Below the pieces are notes generated by a model, which saw only the letters and a program-made list of their open reading frames with translations, made no database searches and had not been told where the DNA came from. A stretch of DNA of 38,300 nt. Origin: Angustibacter sp. Root456. GTDB lineage: Bacteria; Actinomycetota; Actinomycetes; Actinomycetales; Angustibacteraceae. The translations under genes and the position numbers were made by a program. Every line of letters begins with the position of its first letter. Position 1 is the stretch's first letter. Where the stretch lies: NCBI RefSeq assembly GCF_001426435.1, contig NZ_LMER01000015.1:456-38755 (forward strand). The letters are read 5' to 3'. Positions 149 to 6,814 of the stretch are shown here, piece after piece.

Positions 149-310
149 CTACGCGACCAGGTGAACGTCGTAGTCGACCACCACCGCGGCGTGGTCGCTC
201 CACCGCTCGGCGTAGCTGTGCGCGCGCCCGGCCTCGGCTTTGACCGCTCGAGCGCCGAGAGCCGCCGTCGCCAGCTGGTAGTCGATCCGCCACCCCGCGT
301 CGTTGTCCAA
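149..310 (-). pseudogene. Displaced 3' fragment of an exonuclease III gene (xth)
   Basis: Read on the minus strand, these bases encode about 53 residues ending at TAG (149-151). They match the C-terminus of the intact Xth at 6008-6814: DNDAGWRIDYQLAT against DSDAGWRIDYQLAT, then SYAERWSDHA in both, with about 33 of 48 residues identical. The SDH catalytic triplet is kept. No start codon exists, homology stops at about 310, and the same frame meets a TAG just upstream, so it cannot be a gene. Codons are GC-rich at third positions, like the host core genes. I read it as the original 3' end of the host xth, cut off when the island entered. Confidence 0.8.
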
Positions 311-381
311 CGACCTCCGCTATCTCACCAAACGTCGACTACACGCTGACCTGCGTAAATGCGCGATTTGATCTTGATCAC

Positions 382-433
382 GGCGGCCGCGCAGCCCATG
401 CCAGGGGGTGTTACGGGCACACATGCGGCCGCC
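382..433. repeat. Inverted repeat in the left non-coding margin of the island
   Basis: Nine-base arms (382-390 and 425-433, GGCGGCCGC and its complement) flank a 34-base interval between the xth fragment and the first operator. Bases 311-502 hold no convincing gene. The interval is long for a terminator and there is no U-tract, so any function is unknown. Confidence 0.35.
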
Positions 434-502
434 CCACACCGACTCAAATCCTCAGGTCGCGTCGCCCCGAGCTCGCTCTTCCACACTTCCCGCCAAGAAC
501 AA

Positions 503-516
503 GAGACTATAGTCTC
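503..516. promoter_or_regulatory. C-box-like palindrome 1 overlapping the promoter of the 181 aa gene
   Basis: This is a perfect 14-bp palindrome, GAGACTATAGTCTC. Its core, GACTATAGTC, recurs at 1311-1320 and 5463-5472. The sequence TATAGT at 508-513 is a good -10 hexamer and lies across the dyad, and GTG (522) follows eight bases later, so the transcript is probably leaderless. A dimeric HTH protein bound here would cover the -10 and repress. Controller proteins of restriction-modification systems bind GACT/AGTC dyads (family knowledge). No good -35 is visible. Confidence 0.7.
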
Positions 517-521
517 GTTGG

Positions 522-1067
522 GTGAATAGGCGTCGCCGGAGGCCGGACCCAGCCGTGGAGGCCTTCCTGGCATGCCACCCAGCACCGGCCGCCCCCACTC
601 GCTGGGTCAGAGAGACCAAGGCTGACGGGCGTGACTACTGGGCGGCAGTGGACGCGCCGGTGGTCACCTTCGAAGAGGCCTGGGCGCGGTACCACCACTT
701 CATGGCCGAGGCCGTGCTCTGGATGATCCAGGAGGGGCGCTGGCCTGAGTGGAGTTGGGACGACGACTGCGTGGCGCTGCACGCGTCCGTCGACGACAGC
801 AGGGCCGGGACGGTGGCGGCGGAGAAGTTGTGGATCAGAAAGCTACTTCTGGGCGAGGCCCTCGAAGGACAGCACGTTGCGGACCCAGTCCCCCGTGTGT
901 TCGCGACGAGCGCGGATCTGGATAGAGCGCGGACACAGGCACTCCGATCGGACCTCGATCAAGAGATCCATCGCGCATGGAGTAGTTGGCGTCGAGCGGT
1001 CGAGGCAGTCCGTGACGGCGGTCTGGCAGCGCTTGCGGAGCTCGCCGAGGAGAACGACGGCGTCTAG
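522..1067 (+). CDS. Island protein A, 181 aa, unknown function, paralogue of the product at 5571-5846
   Basis: I do not recognise the family. The protein is soluble, with no signal peptide or membrane segment, an Arg-rich start and an acidic body. Residues ~49-140 align with the shorter island protein B. Shared features are TFE..W at the start of the match, MAE, PEWsWDDDC (PEWWWDEEC in B), a charged DD segment, L.W..LLL..E..EG.H, VRVF.T and a final AR..ALR. The motif with two Trp, an acidic cluster and Cys is the most distinctive. The GTG start follows a TATAGT -10 in palindrome 1 by eight bases, without a ribosome site, so translation is probably leaderless. It ends tail-to-tail with the next ORF, sharing the bases CTAG. 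An antitoxin-like, immunity or anti-repressor role is possible but is inference only. Confidence 0.7.
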   Translation: MNRRRRRPDPAVEAFLACHPAPAAPTRWVRETKADGRDYWAAVDAPVVTFEEAWARYHHFMAEAVLWMIQEGRWPEWSWDDDCVALHASVDDSRAGTVAAEKLWIRKLLLGEALEGQHVADPVPRVFATSADLDRARTQALRSDLDQEIHRAWSSWRRAVEAVRDGGLAALAELAEENDGV

Positions 1068-1252
1068 CCCTCGCCCTCCAAGTCCGCGGCCACATCGACA
1101 AAGGCCTGCCAGGCGTCCCGGAGCCGCTCCCGCTCCGCTACGGAGAGCCCGTCGCCGGCCGTCGTAAAAGCCACGTCTTCCGCGACGTCCGCGAGCGCCT
1201 CGGCAGCCCGCTGGTAGGGGGTTGACGGGTAGACCGAGTTGGCCCTACTCAT
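1064..1252 (-). CDS. Small helical protein of 62 aa, unknown function
   Basis: ATG at 1252, ending with a TAG inside the CTAG that also stops protein A. The sequence is Ala/Glu/Asp-rich and probably almost all helical (QRAAEALADVAEDVAF, then VAERERLRDAWQAFVDVAADLE). It is acidic and has no Cys, membrane segment or recognised domain. It lies on the same strand as the controller-like HTH gene 1407-1661, and palindrome 2 sits between them. A 19-codon leaderless-type ORF (1304-1245) overlaps its start by eight bases, so translation may be coupled. It could be a small partner protein of the island. Its size makes the call uncertain. Confidence 0.45.
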   Translation of the reverse strand: MSRANSVYPSTPYQRAAEALADVAEDVAFTTAGDGLSVAERERLRDAWQAFVDVAADLEGEG

Positions 1253-1304
1253 TGGCCGTCCTCATGTCCTGCCCCGCCCGCCGCATCGCCGAAGCCTCTG
1301 CCAC
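1245..1304 (-). CDS. Possible 19-codon leader ORF upstream of the 62 aa gene
   Basis: GTG at 1304 is seven bases past the minus-strand TATAGT of palindrome 2. That is almost the spacing seen for protein A (eight) and the same as the leader of protein B (seven). The frame runs 19 codons (MAEASAMRRAGQDM...) to TAG at 1245-1247 and overlaps the next ATG (1252). If the transcript is leaderless, this would be the first start translated, and it may deliver ribosomes to the 62 aa gene. The evidence is positional only. Confidence 0.3.
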   Translation of the reverse strand: MAEASAMRRAGQDMRTANE

Positions 1305-1309
1305 GGCAA

Positions 1310-1321
1310 TGACTATAGTCA
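1310..1321. promoter_or_regulatory. C-box-like palindrome 2
   Basis: A perfect 12-bp palindrome, TGACTATAGTCA, with the same GACTATAGTC core as the sites at 503-516 and 5450-5485. The minus-strand TATAGT (1317-1312) would serve as -10 for the small ORFs reading leftwards. The site lies between the first HTH gene and the 62 aa ORF. Confidence 0.65.
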
Positions 1322-1406
1322 CGCACGCTTACCGCTTTGCAACGATGCCTGCGCAGGCTTGGGAGCGGAGAACCCCTCCCGCTGGCTTGTCGTCAACCAG
1401 GGGCCG

Positions 1407-1661
1407 TCAGTCATCAGCGTCTAGAACGTCGGCCTCGACCCTCGCGACCACTTCCGCCATGGTTAAGCCCAGGGACCACGCCAGCCGTGCCGCCACCTCG
1501 AGGGTCATGCGGCGCTTGCCGGTCTCGATGAGCCCGATGCTGGTTCTGTGGAGCTCGGCCTCCTGGCCGAGCCGCTCCAGCGACCACCCTCGCGCCAGCC
1601 TGGCCTCTCGCAGTACCTGGGCTATACCCCTCGCGAAGTCTTCGTCACGACGGGTTGGCAC
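1407..1661 (-). CDS. XRE-type HTH regulator 1, controller (C) protein-like, 84 aa
   Basis: A single-domain helix-turn-helix protein. Helix 1 (VLREARLARGW), the SLERLG turn, the recognition segment LHRTSIGLIE..GKRR (residues ~37-51) and the VAARLAW helix are clear. Length and layout match C proteins of restriction-modification systems, and the SXX-like Cro/CI class is the alternative. It is about 68% identical to regulator 2 (5176-5424), with identical recognition helices, so both should read the same operators. The GTG start was chosen because both genes begin GTG, share TAGGTTCAA just upstream and have exactly 39 bases between TATAGT and the GTG. It has no partner nuclease gene directly downstream. 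It may cross-regulate the AIPR operon. Confidence 0.88.
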   Translation of the reverse strand: MPTRRDEDFARGIAQVLREARLARGWSLERLGQEAELHRTSIGLIETGKRRMTLEVAARLAWSLGLTMAEVVARVEADVLDADD

Positions 1662-1698
1662 ACGTTGAACCTAGGTGGCGGTGCGCGGACAATCCATG

Positions 1699-1711
1699 CC
1701 ACTATAATGTC
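1699..1711 (-). promoter_or_regulatory. Promoter with a degenerate C-box upstream of HTH regulator 1
   Basis: The minus strand reads GACATTATAGTGG. It contains TATAGT (1706-1701) at exactly the distance from the GTG that is seen for regulator 2, but only one half of the GACT/AGTC dyad is intact. It may be a weaker operator. Bases 1712-1912 show no gene. Confidence 0.45.
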
Positions 1712-1912
1712 GCTCGCAGAAAATCCGCCCTATTTGCCGGCACTGCTACCAGGCAGTTATGCGACCAGCTGATCTTGATTGACGTGGTCAGGATGCCATG
1801 CCGCAGCACCGCCACAGGCGACGATTCAGGGGGTGGAGGCGTTCCGTTCTGGTTCCGTCTGCCCCGTCAAGGACCCATACGTTCGCTCTTCGTTTGCCGG
1901 CTCGCCTGACGG

Positions 1913-3094
1913 TCATCCAGTCCTTGATGTAGGCGCTGCAGCAGTTGCCGTCCCCGAGCTTGGGCGCCGACGCGACCTAAATCGCAGGGACACCGCCCCT
2001 CCAAGGACGATCAGGCTGAGGTCACGCAATGCGTTTCCCACCTGCTGGCCATTCACGTTAGTGACGGCTATCGCAGCGTCCCAATCGGGGAGTGCCTGCT
2101 CGCTGGCCACGAACGTCAACGTATCCCCCCGGTTCACACCGACGCCTCTCACGATGCGTGGAGATGCTTGGTTCTTCTCACTCAGACCCCATGTTGGAAA
2201 CTCTACGACCGTTCCTTTCCGCATCGCGCCCTGCGCCTCCCGGGAAACATCGTCGAATGAAGCCCACGCTGAGTTTCCCGGCCCCTCCGACATACGAACG
2301 CCATACCCGGTCTCGTAGTCTCCTGTGCGGAAGAATGAGTTGGAAACCGGAACGCGGATCTTCTCGCCGTCCGCGGGACAAACGACGGTAGCTACGGGAC
2401 TGGGGAGATCCAGTATGTCCATGCGACAAGTCGGCGGAACCTCCGAAGGCACTGCCCCCACGACTGTCCATTCGACGTGCAGGTACCCAGCGATGGCCCT
2501 TAGCTCCAGGCTGCCGTCGGGTTGAACTCGGACCGACGGCGGGGCGGCAATGTCAACGTGCGACCACTTGGAGAGCTCTTTCCTTGGCACTCTGACACTA
2601 ATGACGGGAAGGGCGCTGCTATTTGGCAGGGTCCTCGCGCTGTCATGCAGCCCGAAGATCATGCTGCCGCTCAGGCCGACGAGGGCCCACGAAAACACGA
2701 CGAAGGCATCGGCGAGCCAACGGGAGATGATAATCAATGCAGCGATCGCGATCGCACTCAATCCCGTCTGCAGCATCAGTTGGGTAATCGGACGGAATCT
2801 CTCGTGCGGGTCCCACCACACCTGAGCCCAGAAAGAGATTGCCAGTCCGGCCATTGCGCCAAAGAATAGCGCGAGGAGGGCGCATACGATTGGCGAAGCC
2901 GCCCATAGCCGAGACGGCTGGTTATTGGCAACGCGCGGGCTGAGTGTTGAACGCTCTGTGGCTACAGGCTGCAGCGTCTTCGCGCTCGGGGCGCGGCCCC
3001 TGGGTGGGCCCGCTGGTGCGGTTGCCCGCCTGTGTCTCCGTTTGTGCCGATCCGGTTCATTGTCGGCGCGTCCCAGTGGCGGAGTCGATGGCAC
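1913..3094 (-). CDS. Island membrane protein with a ~200-residue outer domain, 393 aa
   Basis: I do not recognise the family. Residues 1-66 are Arg/Pro-rich and probably cytoplasmic. Three membrane segments follow at ~68-90 (IVCALLALFFGAMAGLAISF), ~106-124 and ~129-149. Residues ~150-355 are polar and beta-rich with two Cys and should lie outside the membrane. A weak fourth segment near 358-372 is followed by RFRSRRR, which fits a cytoplasmic tail by the positive-inside rule. The GTG start has only a weak GGA upstream, so a later start is possible. It stands alone on the minus strand, downstream of the AIPR gene, and codon use is less GC-biased than in the core genes. A role as membrane effector or phage-entry barrier is conceivable, but nothing in the sequence proves it. 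Confidence 0.7.
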   Translation of the reverse strand: MPSTPPLGRADNEPDRHKRRHRRATAPAGPPRGRAPSAKTLQPVATERSTLSPRVANNQPSRLWAASPIVCALLALFFGAMAGLAISFWAQVWWDPHERFRPITQLMLQTGLSAIAIAALIIISRWLADAFVVFSWALVGLSGSMIFGLHDSARTLPNSSALPVISVRVPRKELSKWSHVDIAAPPSVRVQPDGSLELRAIAGYLHVEWTVVGAVPSEVPPTCRMDILDLPSPVATVVCPADGEKIRVPVSNSFFRTGDYETGYGVRMSEGPGNSAWASFDDVSREAQGAMRKGTVVEFPTWGLSEKNQASPRIVRGVGVNRGDTLTFVASEQALPDWDAAIAVTNVNGQQVGNALRDLSLIVLGGAVSLRFRSRRRPSSGTATAAAPTSRTG

Positions 3095-3204
3095 ATCCGC
3101 AGGTTAGCGATACTCGAGGGACGTCGGTCGTATGCGCGAAGTCGCTTTGGCCGTGCGAGGGCCCCGAAGACGGGGGGGGCTGCACGAACGGCTGACAGTT
3201 GAGG

Positions 3205-3330
3205 TCAGGCGGCCTGGGCGGCGGTTGTGGTCATGATCAGCTCGTATTGACCGGGGTCGATCATCCGATGGCGGCCCGCCTTCGACGGCGGTGATACACC
3301 CTCCGAGCATGCAAAGGCAGCGAGACGACG
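3205..3330 (-). pseudogene. Possible gene remnant between the AIPR gene and the membrane protein gene
   Basis: A minus-strand frame without a convincing start reads ...GRHRMIDPGQYELIM followed by TTTAAQAA and stops at TGA (3205-3207). It has the composition of a real protein C-terminus and recalls the tail of some transposases, but I cannot assign it. The rest of 3095-3371 contains a run of eight G near 3172 and no other gene. Confidence 0.2.
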
Positions 3331-3371
3331 TCTTGACGACGAAGTGCTCTAAGGGCCACAGGATGCCCAGG

Positions 3372-5105
3372 TCACTTCATAGGCGCGATCCACCAACCCC
3401 TTCCCGCTCGCGTACCCCTCCGTGCCTTCGCGATCTGGGTCACATCGGACGTGAACGACTGCTGCTTCGTGAAGTCGCGGGTCAACTCGGAGCCGCCAGC
3501 AGCCTCTAGCACGACTTCGCCCGCCTGGCGGTAGAGGTCGCCGGCAGCATCGTCCGCCCACAGCACTCGGCTGAACGCCTCTGCTGCCTTCTCCTGCCTT
3601 CTGCTATTCATGGGACCCACCTGATCACCGAGTGCCAGATGCCTCACGGCATGCAGGACGTGGTAGCGGGCCGGCCGCAACGCTCGATCCAGGGACTGCG
3701 CCCTGAACAGCGATTCCAGCTTGTACAGCGCTAGTGCGCTCGCATAGTAGTTCTCGAGCTTGTGGTCATCATCGAAGACTCGCTTACCAACCTGGGTATA
3801 TAGCGTTGAATAGTACCGGGTGGCCCGATGTGCCTCATCGAGAAATACCGATGCGAAGGCCTTCACGAGCTGCGCACGTGTGATGATCTTATACCGAGGT
3901 ACGCCGGACATACCTGAATACTGCTGTGAGCGCCGCTCGTAGTACAACCGCCTCGAGTCCTCGAAAGTGGCGAAGTAGTCCTCGAGCTTCTTCTGGAAGG
4001 ACAGAAGTGCGTATAGGTCTTCCTTTGCAACCTTCGTCTGACTGTTGGTTGCTGCAGTGATCGTATTAGCGATTTCGTCACTTTGTGTGATCACCAGGCG
4101 CACTGGAACTGACACCTTATCCAATGAGTCTGCCAAGTTGAAGAGAATGTTGGACGTCTGACAGCCGTTCACGATCTGGAAATCTTCGAGCGTGAACTCA
4201 TTCGCAGTCGTGCGGAGTTGACGGCCGACGATCGTAATCCCGTTATTCAGGACGGCAAACCGATCCGCAGCCTCAATAATCGACCGCCGAATGCCATCGT
4301 TGACCTCGTTGCTCTCCCCTTGGAAGTCACGGACATTGTCTTCAAAGATTCCACGCCGAAGGTCGCCGGCCTCATCAGTGACGATGCGCAGGAACTGTGA
4401 GCCTGGCAGATAACCTAGGTAGGACTGATCGACACCGTCGATCCTTGGCAGTGTGACCTTATCGCGAAACTCGAAGCTAACGCTGACACTATTCTGGATA
4501 GCTCGATAGCGACGCTGAACATCGTCGGCCCCGACTGGCGTTACCGTTACATCGCGAAACAGCGATAGTTCTGCGAGCCGATCACGCGCGGCGTCACGGC
4601 GCAGCGAGGGTGTTCTGTCGTCCGCCCAGCGACCAGTTGTGACGTAGAAGAGATGACAGTCCGGATTGCGCTTCAACTTCGCGCCAAGCCCGAATAGGCG
4701 TTCTGCTATGTCCTTCGCCGGTCGGAGTCGCGGTGGAACGGAGTCCTCGGCGAAGAATAGGCGCACTTCTTCCCCGAAGTTCGCAATCTTCGCTCCGTCA
4801 AACTCGGGACTCGTCTTGGCTTGAATAAAGTAGAAGTCGGGTTCGACGTAGCCGTGGGTCTCTAGGATCGCCTCTAAATCATCGACCGTGGCCACGACTG
4901 TGCCACTGATTATCACGGCCACCGAGTCGATTCCGGGTGTGGAGTCGTCGCCGACGGAGACATCGTCCACTGCCAACGTGTCGTGCACTTTCGGCGAGAG
5001 GATCGAATAGGCAGCGAAGCGCTCAAACAGCCGGGCTTCGTCCATCCCAGCCAGATCCTCCGACTGGGCGTATTCAGCCACCAGCGACTTGGTGATCTTG
5101 TCCAC
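3372..5105 (-). CDS. AIPR-family protein (abortive infection/phage resistance), 577 aa
   Basis: The AIPR family (named after an abortive phage resistance locus) is recognised from GIDSVAVIISG, FYFIQAKTSPEFDG, VRDFQGESNEVNDGIR, FAVLNNGITIV and FQIVNGCQTSNILF. Counting from the upstream ATG at 5147, Asp74 and the Gln-Ala-Lys at 109-111 have the spacing of the Mrr-like D-x(n)-QxK variant of the PD-(D/E)xK nuclease core. This suggests a nuclease, which is inference. The start was set at GTG 5105 because AAAGGGGGA stands seven bases upstream. The ATG at 5147 adds 14 residues without a ribosome site. The HTH gene 5176-5424 lies 70 bases upstream on the same strand, so the two form an operon under the 36-bp palindrome. 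Codon use (ATA, AGG, TTG) is foreign compared with the core genes. Confidence 0.85.
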   Translation of the reverse strand: MDKITKSLVAEYAQSEDLAGMDEARLFERFAAYSILSPKVHDTLAVDDVSVGDDSTPGIDSVAVIISGTVVATVDDLEAILETHGYVEPDFYFIQAKTSPEFDGAKIANFGEEVRLFFAEDSVPPRLRPAKDIAERLFGLGAKLKRNPDCHLFYVTTGRWADDRTPSLRRDAARDRLAELSLFRDVTVTPVGADDVQRRYRAIQNSVSVSFEFRDKVTLPRIDGVDQSYLGYLPGSQFLRIVTDEAGDLRRGIFEDNVRDFQGESNEVNDGIRRSIIEAADRFAVLNNGITIVGRQLRTTANEFTLEDFQIVNGCQTSNILFNLADSLDKVSVPVRLVITQSDEIANTITAATNSQTKVAKEDLYALLSFQKKLEDYFATFEDSRRLYYERRSQQYSGMSGVPRYKIITRAQLVKAFASVFLDEAHRATRYYSTLYTQVGKRVFDDDHKLENYYASALALYKLESLFRAQSLDRALRPARYHVLHAVRHLALGDQVGPMNSRRQEKAAEAFSRVLWADDAAGDLYRQAGEVVLEAAGGSELTRDFTKQQSFTSDVTQIAKARRGTRAGRGWWIAPMK

Positions 5106-5175
5106 GCGAATGTCCCCCTTTGGACGTCCACACCGAGCCGCACGCATTTGCGGCGCTAAAGGAGACTAGCAACCT

Positions 5176-5424
5176 TCACCCGTGGAGCAGGCGGTCCTCT
5201 GCCGCGGCTACCACTTCGGACAGACTCATGTCGACGGCCCAGGCCAATCGAGCTGCCACGTCGAGCGTCATGCGACGCTTGCCACGCTCGATCAACCCGA
5301 TGCTGGTTCTGTGCAGACCTGCCTCGTCACCAAGGCGCTCGAGCGACCAACCGCGTGCGAGACGCGCCTCGCGAAGTACGTCGACTACAACCTTGGCGAA
5401 CTCCTCATCACGCCTTGGCTGCAC
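5176..5424 (-). CDS. XRE-type HTH regulator 2, controller (C) protein-like, 82 aa
   Basis: Paralogue of regulator 1 with 17 consecutive identical residues at positions 16-32 and an identical recognition helix (LHRTSIGLIE). It is a single HTH domain of the size of restriction-modification C proteins. The GTG start is 39 bases from the minus-strand TATAGT in the 36-bp palindrome, and TAGGTTCAA precedes the start as in regulator 1. It is the first gene of an operon with the AIPR gene, the C-then-R order of many controlled restriction systems, and is divergent from island protein B. Autorepression is likely because the palindrome covers its own -10. Activation at low level, as C proteins do, is also possible because no good -35 is visible. 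Confidence 0.9.
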   Translation of the reverse strand: MQPRRDEEFAKVVVDVLREARLARGWSLERLGDEAGLHRTSIGLIERGKRRMTLDVAARLAWAVDMSLSEVVAAAEDRLLHG

Positions 5425-5449
5425 CTATTGAACCTACGGACAAGGACGC

Positions 5450-5485
5450 GCGTCATCTACGAGACTATAGTCTCGTAGATGACGC
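5450..5485. promoter_or_regulatory. 36-bp perfect palindrome, divergent operator/promoter (C-box-like)
   Basis: The two 18-base arms are exact reverse complements with no spacer (dyad between 5467 and 5468). The core is GACTATAGTC, as at 503-516 and 1310-1321. TATAGT occurs on both strands across the dyad (5466-5471 forward, 5469-5464 reverse) and can serve as -10 for the HTH-AIPR operon to the left and the protein B transcript to the right. One bound dimer or tetramer would therefore control both directions. The stem is long enough to extrude as a cruciform. Confidence 0.8.
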
Positions 5486-5571
5486 CTACCCCGCCCGCCG
5501 ACGGCGGGCTCCCTCAACGTCGGCCCTCGACCGGACGTTCGAGCCGTGTTGGCAGCGGTTTGTTGAAGTGA
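5479..5571 (+). CDS. Possible 30-codon leader ORF, or frameshifted N-terminus, of protein B
   Basis: ATG at 5479 is seven bases past the forward TATAGT of the 36-bp palindrome, inside its right arm. The frame runs 30 codons (MTPTPPADGGLPQRR...) and ends at TGA 5569-5571, whose A starts the ATG of the next frame (TGATG). This is either a leader ORF with termination-reinitiation coupling, or the original N-terminus of protein B separated by a one-base frameshift. Confidence 0.35.
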   Translation: MTPTPPADGGLPQRRPSTGRSSRVGSGLLK

Positions 5572-5846
5572 TGGCAGAAGGCTGGCCCCAGGCCCTGGAG
5601 GGTCGTCGACTGCCGGAGTGGTGGTGGGATGAGGAGTGCAGCCTGGCGGCGGACGACAGCACAGGCGACGACTTCGACGGCCGGGAAGTGGCAGGGCTGC
5701 GTAAATGGATCTTGCTGCTCTTGACCGCGGAGCGGACCGAAGGACGGCACATCGGCCGGTCTGCGGTGCGAGTGTTCCCAACCGCTCGGTCTCTCGAGCA
5801 GGCTCGGGGCATGGCCCTTCGGTATGGCGTGGAGCAAGATCGATGA
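5571..5846 (+). CDS. Island protein B, 91 aa, unknown function, shortened paralogue of protein A
   Basis: It shares PEWWWDEEC, the DD-rich segment, LRKWILLLLTAERTEGRH, VRVFPTA and AR.MALR with protein A (522-1067) but lacks the C-terminal ~40 residues of A. Similarity to A begins upstream of this ATG (TFEPCW in B against TFEEAW in A), in a frame with no start codon between the palindrome and 5568. The gene may therefore be frameshifted near its start, or may be translated by coupling from the leader ORF at 5479. GTG 5568 is an alternative start. It is divergent from HTH regulator 2 across the 36-bp palindrome, the place a methyltransferase would occupy in a C-R/M arrangement. Function unknown. 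Bases 5847-6007 hold no gene, only a small inverted repeat at 5895-5912. Confidence 0.6.
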   Translation: MAEGWPQALEGRRLPEWWWDEECSLAADDSTGDDFDGREVAGLRKWILLLLTAERTEGRHIGRSAVRVFPTARSLEQARGMALRYGVEQDR

Positions 5847-6007
5847 GATTGCAGCCAGCTATGAGCGCCGAAGTACACCGTGGCTCCAGCGTTGACGTGC
5901 GCTAGTGCACGTGCCAGCCAAAGTCCTAATGGGTACGTTCGTCGTCAAACAACCACGTGCCACCACGCCGTTCCGACCATGCAGGCAGGCCAAAACACCA
6001 TCCGCCG

Positions 6008-6814
6008 TCACATTTCGTAATCTACCGTAACCGGTGCGTGATCACTCCAGCGCTCAGCGTATGACGGCGCTCTACCGACCGTGACCCTGTGTGCCCGGTT
6101 TGCCAGTTCACGCGTCGCCAACTGGTAATCGATTCTCCATCCGGCGTCGGAGTCGAACGCCTTGCCGCGCCACGACCACCACGTGTACGGCCCGGGGCCG
6201 TCGCCGGCGAGCGAGCGGTGGACGTCGACGTACCCGCCGCGAGTCGACAGCCATCGGTCGAGATAGGCGCGCTCCTCGGGCAGGAACCCCGCGCGTCCGA
6301 CGTTGCCGCGCCAGTTCTTCAGGTCGACCTCGCGGTGCGCCACGTTCAGGTCGCCCGTGACGACGACGTGGTCGCGCTCGCGTCGCAAGGCGGCCATGCG
6401 CCGTCCGGCGGCGGCGAGGAAGCGCTGCTTCACCACCTGTCGCGACGTGCCAGCCTCGCCCGTGTGCACGTACGCCGACACGACGGTCAGAGGACCGGCG
6501 TCGGTGGCCAGGTCGGCCTCCACCCACCGGCCGCAGGGGTCGAACTCTCGGTGCCCGAAGCCGTGTCGGACGTGCGCGGGCTCGTGCCGGGTCAGCACCG
6601 CGACGCCGCACCGGCCGGCGGCGTCGCAGGTGGCGTGCGCCACGTGCCAGCCCGCCAACGGGCTGTCCGCCAGCACCTCGTGCAGCTGCTGTGCCGTCGC
6701 CCGCACCTCCTGCAGCGTCACGACATCCGGTGCAGCGTCGGCGAGCCAGGTGAGGCCGCCGCGACGGGCCGCCGCGCGGATGCCGTTGACGTTGGCGGAG
6801 ACGAGGCGCAGCAC
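6008..6814 (-). CDS. xth: Exodeoxyribonuclease III (xth family), 268 aa
   Basis: Mg-dependent AP endonuclease and 3'-5' exonuclease of base excision repair. Family residues are in place: SANVNG (Asn8), LQEVR (Glu36), Tyr115 in SAYVHTG, GDLNVAH (Asp155, Asn157), the Trp/Phe region TWWSWRGKAFDSDAGWRIDY and the terminal SDH (258-259). Length is normal. The GTG start has GATGGGG just upstream. From about codon 225 (GGA TGG AGA ATC GAT onward) the gene changes to AT-richer codons (AGA, GAT, TTG, GAA, GTA), unlike its first 220 codons. The same C-terminal segment exists as a host-like fragment at 149-310. The gene appears to be a chimera whose 3' end came with the island, yet it looks functional. 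Confidence 0.95.
   Translation of the reverse strand: MLRLVSANVNGIRAAARRGGLTWLADAAPDVVTLQEVRATAQQLHEVLADSPLAGWHVAHATCDAAGRCGVAVLTRHEPAHVRHGFGHREFDPCGRWVEADLATDAGPLTVVSAYVHTGEAGTSRQVVKQRFLAAAGRRMAALRRERDHVVVTGDLNVAHREVDLKNWRGNVGRAGFLPEERAYLDRWLSTRGGYVDVHRSLAGDGPGPYTWWSWRGKAFDSDAGWRIDYQLATRELANRAHRVTVGRAPSYAERWSDHAPVTVDYEM

Follow-up and report, generated by a model that had tools for sequence, protein, structure and literature searches.

Why does the codon usage of xth, a DNA-repair gene, change close to its 3' end in Angustibacter sp. Root456? The window, i.e. the whole stretch of 38,300 nucleotides that we analysed, carries xth as an intact open reading frame of 268 codons with a GTG start (6008-6814, minus strand). 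Going through its codon table, we found that G or C ends 207/225 of codons 1-225 versus 26/43 of codons 226-268, and that AGA, GAT, TTG, CGT, GAA, GTA and AGT appear within the latter in a run beginning with TGG AGA ATC GAT. Splitting the gene at codon 221 gave a GC3 of 0.92 before and 0.62 after, and a change point in GC3 was favoured with a ln BF of 8.0, bearing out the codon-use switch that a preliminary description of this DNA had claimed near the 3' end of xth. The place given there, about codon 225, is not a necessary one: the best split follows codon 224, the 95% set is wide (215-246) and codon 221 (6152-6154) is within the error.

The GC3 drop was compared among 103 xth genes, namely those of the window, of G001, which is the only other genome of the window's genus shown by our searches, and of the 101 out of 108 loci (L011-L118) that passed the extraction filter, including a few near-duplicates and three loci that carry islands of their own (L013, L046 and L117). 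The drop was 0.30 in the window (rank 2/103) and 0.42 in G001 (rank 1/103); in the other 101 genes its mean was -0.002 (sd 0.069) and its maximum 0.19. The third-largest drop is that of L117 (Kineosporia rhizophila), island-bearing as well, which cannot separate both copies since its functional and displaced tails are almost the same and both show the drop. The change point in the xth of G001 had a ln BF of 15.5, a best split after codon 220 and a 95% set of 216-228, and change points are thus found at or near the crossover proposed below in both species of the genus. A shift that is normal in the genus, named in the preliminary description as the observation that would speak against import, is encountered on the surface only: G001 shows the shift because it has its own island at the same place, and the other 101 genes drop by no more than 0.19.

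A second xth 3' end lies at the far side of an island, and the features of the region are:

6155-6814, minus strand: host part of xth, codons 1-220, GC3 0.92; nearest relative, the 5' part of the sister gene (support 100/98)
6153-6154, minus strand: putative crossover dinucleotide GA, in GAC of codon 221, common to both junctions here, to G001 and to the Kineosporia elements
6008-6152, minus strand: imported xth tail, 47 codons and stop, GC3 0.62, carrying the RID and SDH motifs
5481-5846, plus strand: ORFX2, paralogue of ORFX1, true start uncertain
5450-5485: 36-bp perfect palindrome with the core GACTATAGTC, between regulator 2 and ORFX2
5176-5424, minus strand: Cro/C1-type HTH regulator 2, paralogue of regulator 1
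3372-5147, minus strand: AIPR / AbiU-like abortive-infection protein, 591 aa, defence cargo (Pfam AIPR 8e-46, PADLOC AbiU 4e-116)
1913-3094, minus strand: open reading frame of 393 aa, no confident family
1407-1661, minus strand: Cro/C1-type HTH regulator 1, by family scan
1064-1252, minus strand: small open reading frame, 62 aa, no Pfam match
522-1067, plus strand: ORFX1, 181 aa, orphan
308-6152: island of about 5.8 kb, inserted in the tail region of xth
306-323, minus strand: ATAGCGGAGGTCGTTGGA, putative element-side attachment half-site (P half) adjoining the displaced tail, 14/18 with G001 and 11-13/18 with five Kineosporia half-sites
149-305, minus strand: displaced original xth tail, 52 codons from the GAC at 305-307 and stop, GC3 0.90, no start

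As an xth tail, the displaced piece is in frame and ends with a stop codon of its own; it is kin to the displaced tail of the sister genome, and joining the host 5' part to it yields an intact open reading frame of 272 codons. As the preliminary description had stated, this stranded copy is free of the shift; the extent ascribed to it there, 149-310, needs correction, as homology begins at about 307. The displaced tail, the joined open reading frame, the sister's same anatomy with other cargo and the split relationships of the gene parts support the reading of the preliminary description, a chimera in which the 5' part of xth is from the host and its 3' end was imported. The RID and SDH motifs, which we take to be active-site residues of ExoIII, are both conserved in the alignment to the solved exodeoxyribonuclease 2jc5, and these conserved motifs suggest that the chimeric xth is functional.

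The G+C content is 62% in the island (308-6007) versus 73% in 6155-38300. A pair of regulator and ORFX occurs twice, near each island end, with the AbiU/AIPR protein between them; the GACTATAGTC core is repeated before ORFX1 and in G001, and ORFX (522-1067 and 5481-5846 in the window; L119:11757-12224) is divergent from a Cro/C1 regulator across this palindrome. When 9 candidates were scored in each of 396 genomes of the order, ORFX was detected in two, both of this genus. No match to ORFX was found in the phage and plasmid collections, and ORFX1 had none in Pfam or PHROGs or PADLOC either, with a single chance-level match in NCBIfam (E 0.028). Its predicted model is mostly helical (mean pLDDT 68.5) and had no PDB match at E <= 0.001. 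We considered ORFX as a recombinase and found nothing in support, neither a family match above the cut-off nor a structural one at that threshold. Neither the recombinase nor the RepSA and TraB of the Kineosporia elements described below has a relative in the window island, and a tyrosine integrase is likewise absent; integration and transfer genes were also missing from family scans of its larger open reading frames, and an Rfam scan of the window returned nothing. To the left of the displaced tail, the end of the neighbouring gene (24-187) recurs at six other places of the genome with 78-88% identity; the contig extends 455 bases beyond the window on this side and is masked there in places.

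G001 has the anatomy of the window at the same place, i.e. a full xth and a displaced tail 4.9 kb away with different cargo between them: a nucleotidyltransferase, a metallophosphoesterase, a DpnII/MboI-type nuclease domain and a Schlafen AlbA_2 protein. Common to both islands are the Cro/C1 regulator, the orphan ORFX and the GAGACTATAGTCTCG palindrome, which in G001 adjoins the imported tail. Comparing the two species, the displaced tails gave pS 0.42, pN 0.074 and omega 0.13, the first 220 codons, in an ungapped comparison, gave dS 0.75 and omega 0.26, and the imported tails were saturated at synonymous sites; imported and displaced tail differ at 51/144 positions in each species. As few amino-acid changes as in the displaced tails were obtained in 0/5000 simulations that placed an equal number of changes at random and in 0/5000 with transition bias, and these tails therefore belonged to a functioning gene during most of the period after the species split. 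Separate trees, as the preliminary description had proposed, were built with 45 of the 101 other xth genes. The 5' parts of the two species pair (100/98) and so do their displaced tails (99/93). No supported grouping places the imported tails with each other or with the displaced pair, and the tail phylogeny, in which 49 columns resolve little and the bootstrap has not settled, gives no supported placement for the origin of the imported tail. Given that the displaced tails are kin and under constraint and the imported tails are not kin, the insertions in the window and in G001 look recent and independent, as judged from these sequences. One ancestral insertion followed by a change of cargo was considered and rejected: the displaced tails were under constraint for roughly the same time as the remainder of xth, and the imported tails show no kinship. 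A pair of nucleotidyltransferase and metallophosphoesterase genes is xth cargo both in G001 (L119:7506-9037) and in the Kineosporia genome G120 (L149:6357-7783); the two pairs are distantly related (26% and 30% identity, tblastn E 2e-14 and 5e-23), and their nucleotidyltransferases match the PADLOC candidate PDC-S09.

Displaced xth tails were present in 3/59 fully listed genomes, namely that of the window (G000), G001 and G017; G003, of the same family and 62% complete, has xth without a displaced tail. Eighteen genomes, drawn from the 396 of the order by match count, by family or as controls, were inspected by coordinates, and a displaced tail was seen in seven, G017 and six of Kineosporia genus g40, in which 6/6 genomes are occupied at xth. 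About 20 more genomes with at least 3 matches are outside these 18, most of them in genera g13 and g26, whose fully listed genomes have a second xth gene. The flanks of xth in Kineosporia sp. R_H_3 (L102), a record that falls into a different genus (g33) in the tree, contain no additional tail. Among 80 named loci with flanks of up to 10 kb, extra tails were found in two, those of Knoellia sinensis and K. rhizophila. In Knoellia sinensis (L046:10643-14666) three xth tails follow one another, the first and the second being separated by a PLP-dependent enzyme and a ThrE-type exporter. The island of G017 (L120:6253-14168) encodes a 1130-aa restriction-methylation protein of type ISP / IIG, and immediately downstream of xth this genome has another, decayed piece of the gene. 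Two MAG records, L044 and L110, are titled Bifidobacterium breve; the label of L044 is probably wrong since its xth groups with the uncultured actinobacteria L043 and L073 (100/100), and L110 is outside the tree.

Three of the Kineosporia islands (G106, G176 and G200) are small, the distances between gene and displaced tail in the three being about 0.7, 1.6 and 1.9 kb, and are without a recombinase. Among their contents are a YoeB/YefM pair (G106), an HTH_17 protein (G200) and a weak MazE-like match (G176). Their change-point tests gave ln BF 4.8 for G200, with the best split at 226 versus a crossover at 215, -0.2 for G176 and -1.2 for G106, and the clear codon switch is thus not repeated in them. 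A third partial xth tail of about 14 codons (E 0.003) lies between functional gene and displaced tail in G106 (L151:3433-5444), possibly reflecting more than one insertion. Searches of seven small islands, including those of the window and G001, for remnants of the recombinase, RepSA, TraB and GntR found none; three matches were at chance level (E 0.18-0.78).

The other three g40 genomes (G064, G120 and G134) carry at xth a conjugative element of about 19-23 kb with a recombinase. Its layout begins with the host xth to about codon 220, GA, the element end, a whole element-borne xth, cargo and regulators, and continues with an FtsK-type Tra, RepSA, an oppositely oriented serine recombinase, the other element end, GA and the host xth tail. 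This serine recombinase is a large one, about 553 aa long, and its G134 copy lies within a longer open frame. Pfam matches in G120 were Resolvase (4e-28), Recombinase (1e-7) and Zn-ribbon (4e-5, just under the cut-off) for this protein and RepSA (3e-145), FtsK (8e-17) and GntR (3e-17) for the rest of the element, and tblastn detected homologues in G064 and G134.

The element-borne xth genes themselves change near the crossover. Among the three copies the pairwise nonsynonymous difference is 0.01-0.02 in the 5' 220 codons and 0.27-0.38 in the tails from 9 codons past the crossover; the hosts' own parts in the same genomes differ by 0.04-0.06 (5' part) and 0.03-0.11 (displaced tails). DNA identity of the element-borne copies is 0.90-0.95 in the 60 bases before the crossover and 0.55-0.60 in the 60 after, and since the first nine codons past the crossover stay alike the break is not exactly at GA. 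By these comparisons, the replacement of the tail in element-borne xth is an independent replicate of a switch near the crossover.

Relatives of the recombinase (E <= 1e-25, at most 3 candidates scored per genome) are present in 17 genomes of the order, and an xth piece lies within about 1.5 kb in 3/17, all Kineosporia. Class-wide, 394 genomes yielded three recombinases at E <= 1e-60, with an xth piece within about 1.5 kb in 0/3. The nearest serine recombinases in the window's genome are 28% and 25% identical to the Kineosporia one and are on other contigs, and G001 has no relative of it at E <= 0.001. In phages, 45 records matched the recombinase, all with <60% identity; in viral contigs two stretches matched a pattern for it and neither was confirmed. 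The GWRIDYQ pattern hit 17 loci in viral contigs, among them a whole xth with 35% identity and a weak match over 41 residues (E 0.004), and no attP-like xth tail of this kind.

The junctions read GCGTTC-GA-CTCC (host to imported tail) and GTCGTTG-GA-CAAC (element to displaced tail) in the window, GCGTTC-GA-TAAC and ATCCCTG-GA-CAAC in G001, and TGG-GA-TAGC and CTTG-GA-CACC in the Kineosporia genome G120. Both junctions of the window and both of G001 are consistent with one crossover at the GA of codon 221. The window P half agrees with that of G001 at 14/18 positions and with five Kineosporia halves at 11-13/18, a count that omits L046 and G176, whose half would need a gap. Scored by its best match (13/18), the site itself is the sole 13-scorer among the 191 window 18-mers ending with TGGA, four of which, the site included, reach 12/18 or more, the score of G001. 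Since a search of the window for the Kineosporia form TTRACGAMGGYCCYTGGA with up to 3 mismatches found nothing, the likeness to Kineosporia is one of position-wise counts, and we regard it as moderate. On the xth side of the window and of G001 the imported tail takes the place of the element half, and by eye no P'-like sequence is visible; the right junction is therefore not a plain attR, given that its imported side is unlike the Kineosporia P' half.

Together, we consider it likely that a family of serine-recombinase elements has its attB in the 3' part of xth and that the window island is an integrase-less relative, which left a chimeric xth. According to this model, actinobacterial integrative elements with a large serine recombinase would use the 3' part of xth as attB and cross over at GA in the Asp codon after Phe or Trp (TTCGAC / TGGGAC), codon 221 in the window. 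Insertion would sever the last ~50 codons, and since this lost tail contains the RID and SDH motifs only an insertion that brings a replacement tail or a whole xth would be tolerable. The window island would be such a relative carrying an AbiU-like defence gene and regulators, the host 5' part and the imported tail now forming the working gene and the old tail lying next to the element half-site at the far end. We infer that a recombinase of this family made the insertion in the window, either in trans or since lost, and that the chimera arose at the crossover by a route such as accretion of a second element followed by excision between unlike att sites. A serine-recombinase insertion at GA in xth is the best-supported account of the locus.

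More speculatively, xth might be an exchange dock, with a recoded copy of the target on conjugative elements and crossovers that swap defence cargo, together with its own xth tail, between elements and chromosomes; we hold this extension to be doubtful. If true, the element's xth copy would rescue the host, its altered crossover half-site would be a poor target or none, and the codon switch in the window would be the trace of one swap, a natural counterpart of a cut-and-rescue design.

Other routes to a chimeric gene have to be weighed against insertion at GA by the serine recombinase. An element with a whole xth could have inserted at GA, and recombination between the truncated host xth and the element xth could then have deleted one 5' copy, a substrate for which exists in three Kineosporia genomes, where both copies lie side by side and are 70-87% identical per 60-bp window; a switch would then be expected anywhere in about 220 codons, whereas the 95% sets of both species begin at codon 215 or 216, and we consider this route unlikely. 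An island of the icd/e14 kind with a tyrosine integrase, since lost, and an attP natively carrying the 3' end of xth would yield a chimera at the crossover without a second step, and a regenerated target with a displaced fragment is its classic signature (PMC4383910, PMC6379469). However, PF00589 found no tyrosine integrase near xth in G000, G001, G200, G106, G176 or G017, with matches on other contigs or far away (three in G000, none on the window's contig; six in G001, none on the xth contig), the block common to both junctions, about 3-6 bp in the window and in G001, is short for a tyrosine core, and the integrase that is found at the xth site is a serine recombinase, making this origin quite improbable. 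A chimeric gene and a displaced tail are likewise expected from homologous recombination alone, by one crossover with a circular DNA carrying a foreign xth 3' fragment or by homology-assisted end joining of a foreign neighbourhood, and the tails are alike enough to be recognized by tblastn; yet with 51/144 differing positions imported and displaced tail are a poor substrate, and the same junction in several lineages together with change points near the crossover in two independent islands calls for site specificity, and we rate this explanation as improbable, too. A native change of codon use at the xth 3' end without import, for which one might cite that the only other genome seen of the genus has the shift too, is almost certainly wrong, given the drop of at most 0.19 in the 101 other xth genes and displaced tails without the shift.

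More widely, xth contains an insertion site that has been used repeatedly and at which tails are swapped, different elements bringing different tails. An odd codon pattern can now be read as the mark of a hot spot at which elements recurrently insert into a DNA-repair gene, with a candidate recombinase and its putative crossover dinucleotide named. The system is replicated, with two species that carry seemingly independent islands and six genomes of one Kineosporia genus that are all occupied, and it suits the study of elements that break a useful gene yet repair it. A serine recombinase with a protein-coding attB could also become a tool in actinobacteria.

In the open-licence PMC literature, none of the titles and abstract openings among the matches listed names xth as an attachment site. 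Among known systems, the AICE Faln2929 of Frankia alni, the excision of which was detected, has a serine recombinase convergent with tra and rep and disrupts a 'putative endonuclease' gene (PMC3218068). The Kineosporia elements resemble it in that they have RepSA and an FtsK-type Tra and that their serine recombinase, too, is convergent with tra and rep; unlike Faln2929 as described there, they carry a whole xth, its target being given as 'putative endonuclease' only (PMC3218068). The AICE gene set (RepSA-type initiator, FtsK-type Tra and integrase) is present in the Kineosporia elements and absent from the window island, which is without any of the AICE genes of Faln2929. The island resembles CIMEs, for which flanking attL and attR sites, mobilisation in cis or trans by a related element, and accretion are described (PMC5704250): integration and transfer genes are absent, an att-type end is kept on at least one side and several insertions occur per site. 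Its left end has a P-like half and, by eye, its right end no recognisable P' half; unlike in CIMEs, the right end is a host half with a foreign xth tail and no recognisable attR. Islands in tRNA genes use tyrosine integrases according to the work on Islander (PMC4383910), and the displaced end of e14 in icd is given as 163 bp (PMC6379469). The window shares with such tail-regenerating islands the insertion near the 3' end of a housekeeping gene, the regenerated gene and the displaced fragment (PMC6379469, PMC4383910). Specifically, it has the regenerated 268-codon open reading frame with a diverged tail and the fragment at 149-305 at the far end, and it lacks a tyrosine integrase gene. e14 uses a tyrosine integrase; unlike in e14-type islands, a serine-family recombinase is what was found at the xth site, the new tail has diverged strongly and different insertions have different tails. 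SCC and pseudo-SCC elements at rlmH have serine recombinases, repeatedly use the 3' end of a housekeeping gene and include derivatives without recombinase. The att site of rlmH is at the very end of the gene, whereas at xth about 50 codons with the active-site motifs are exchanged.
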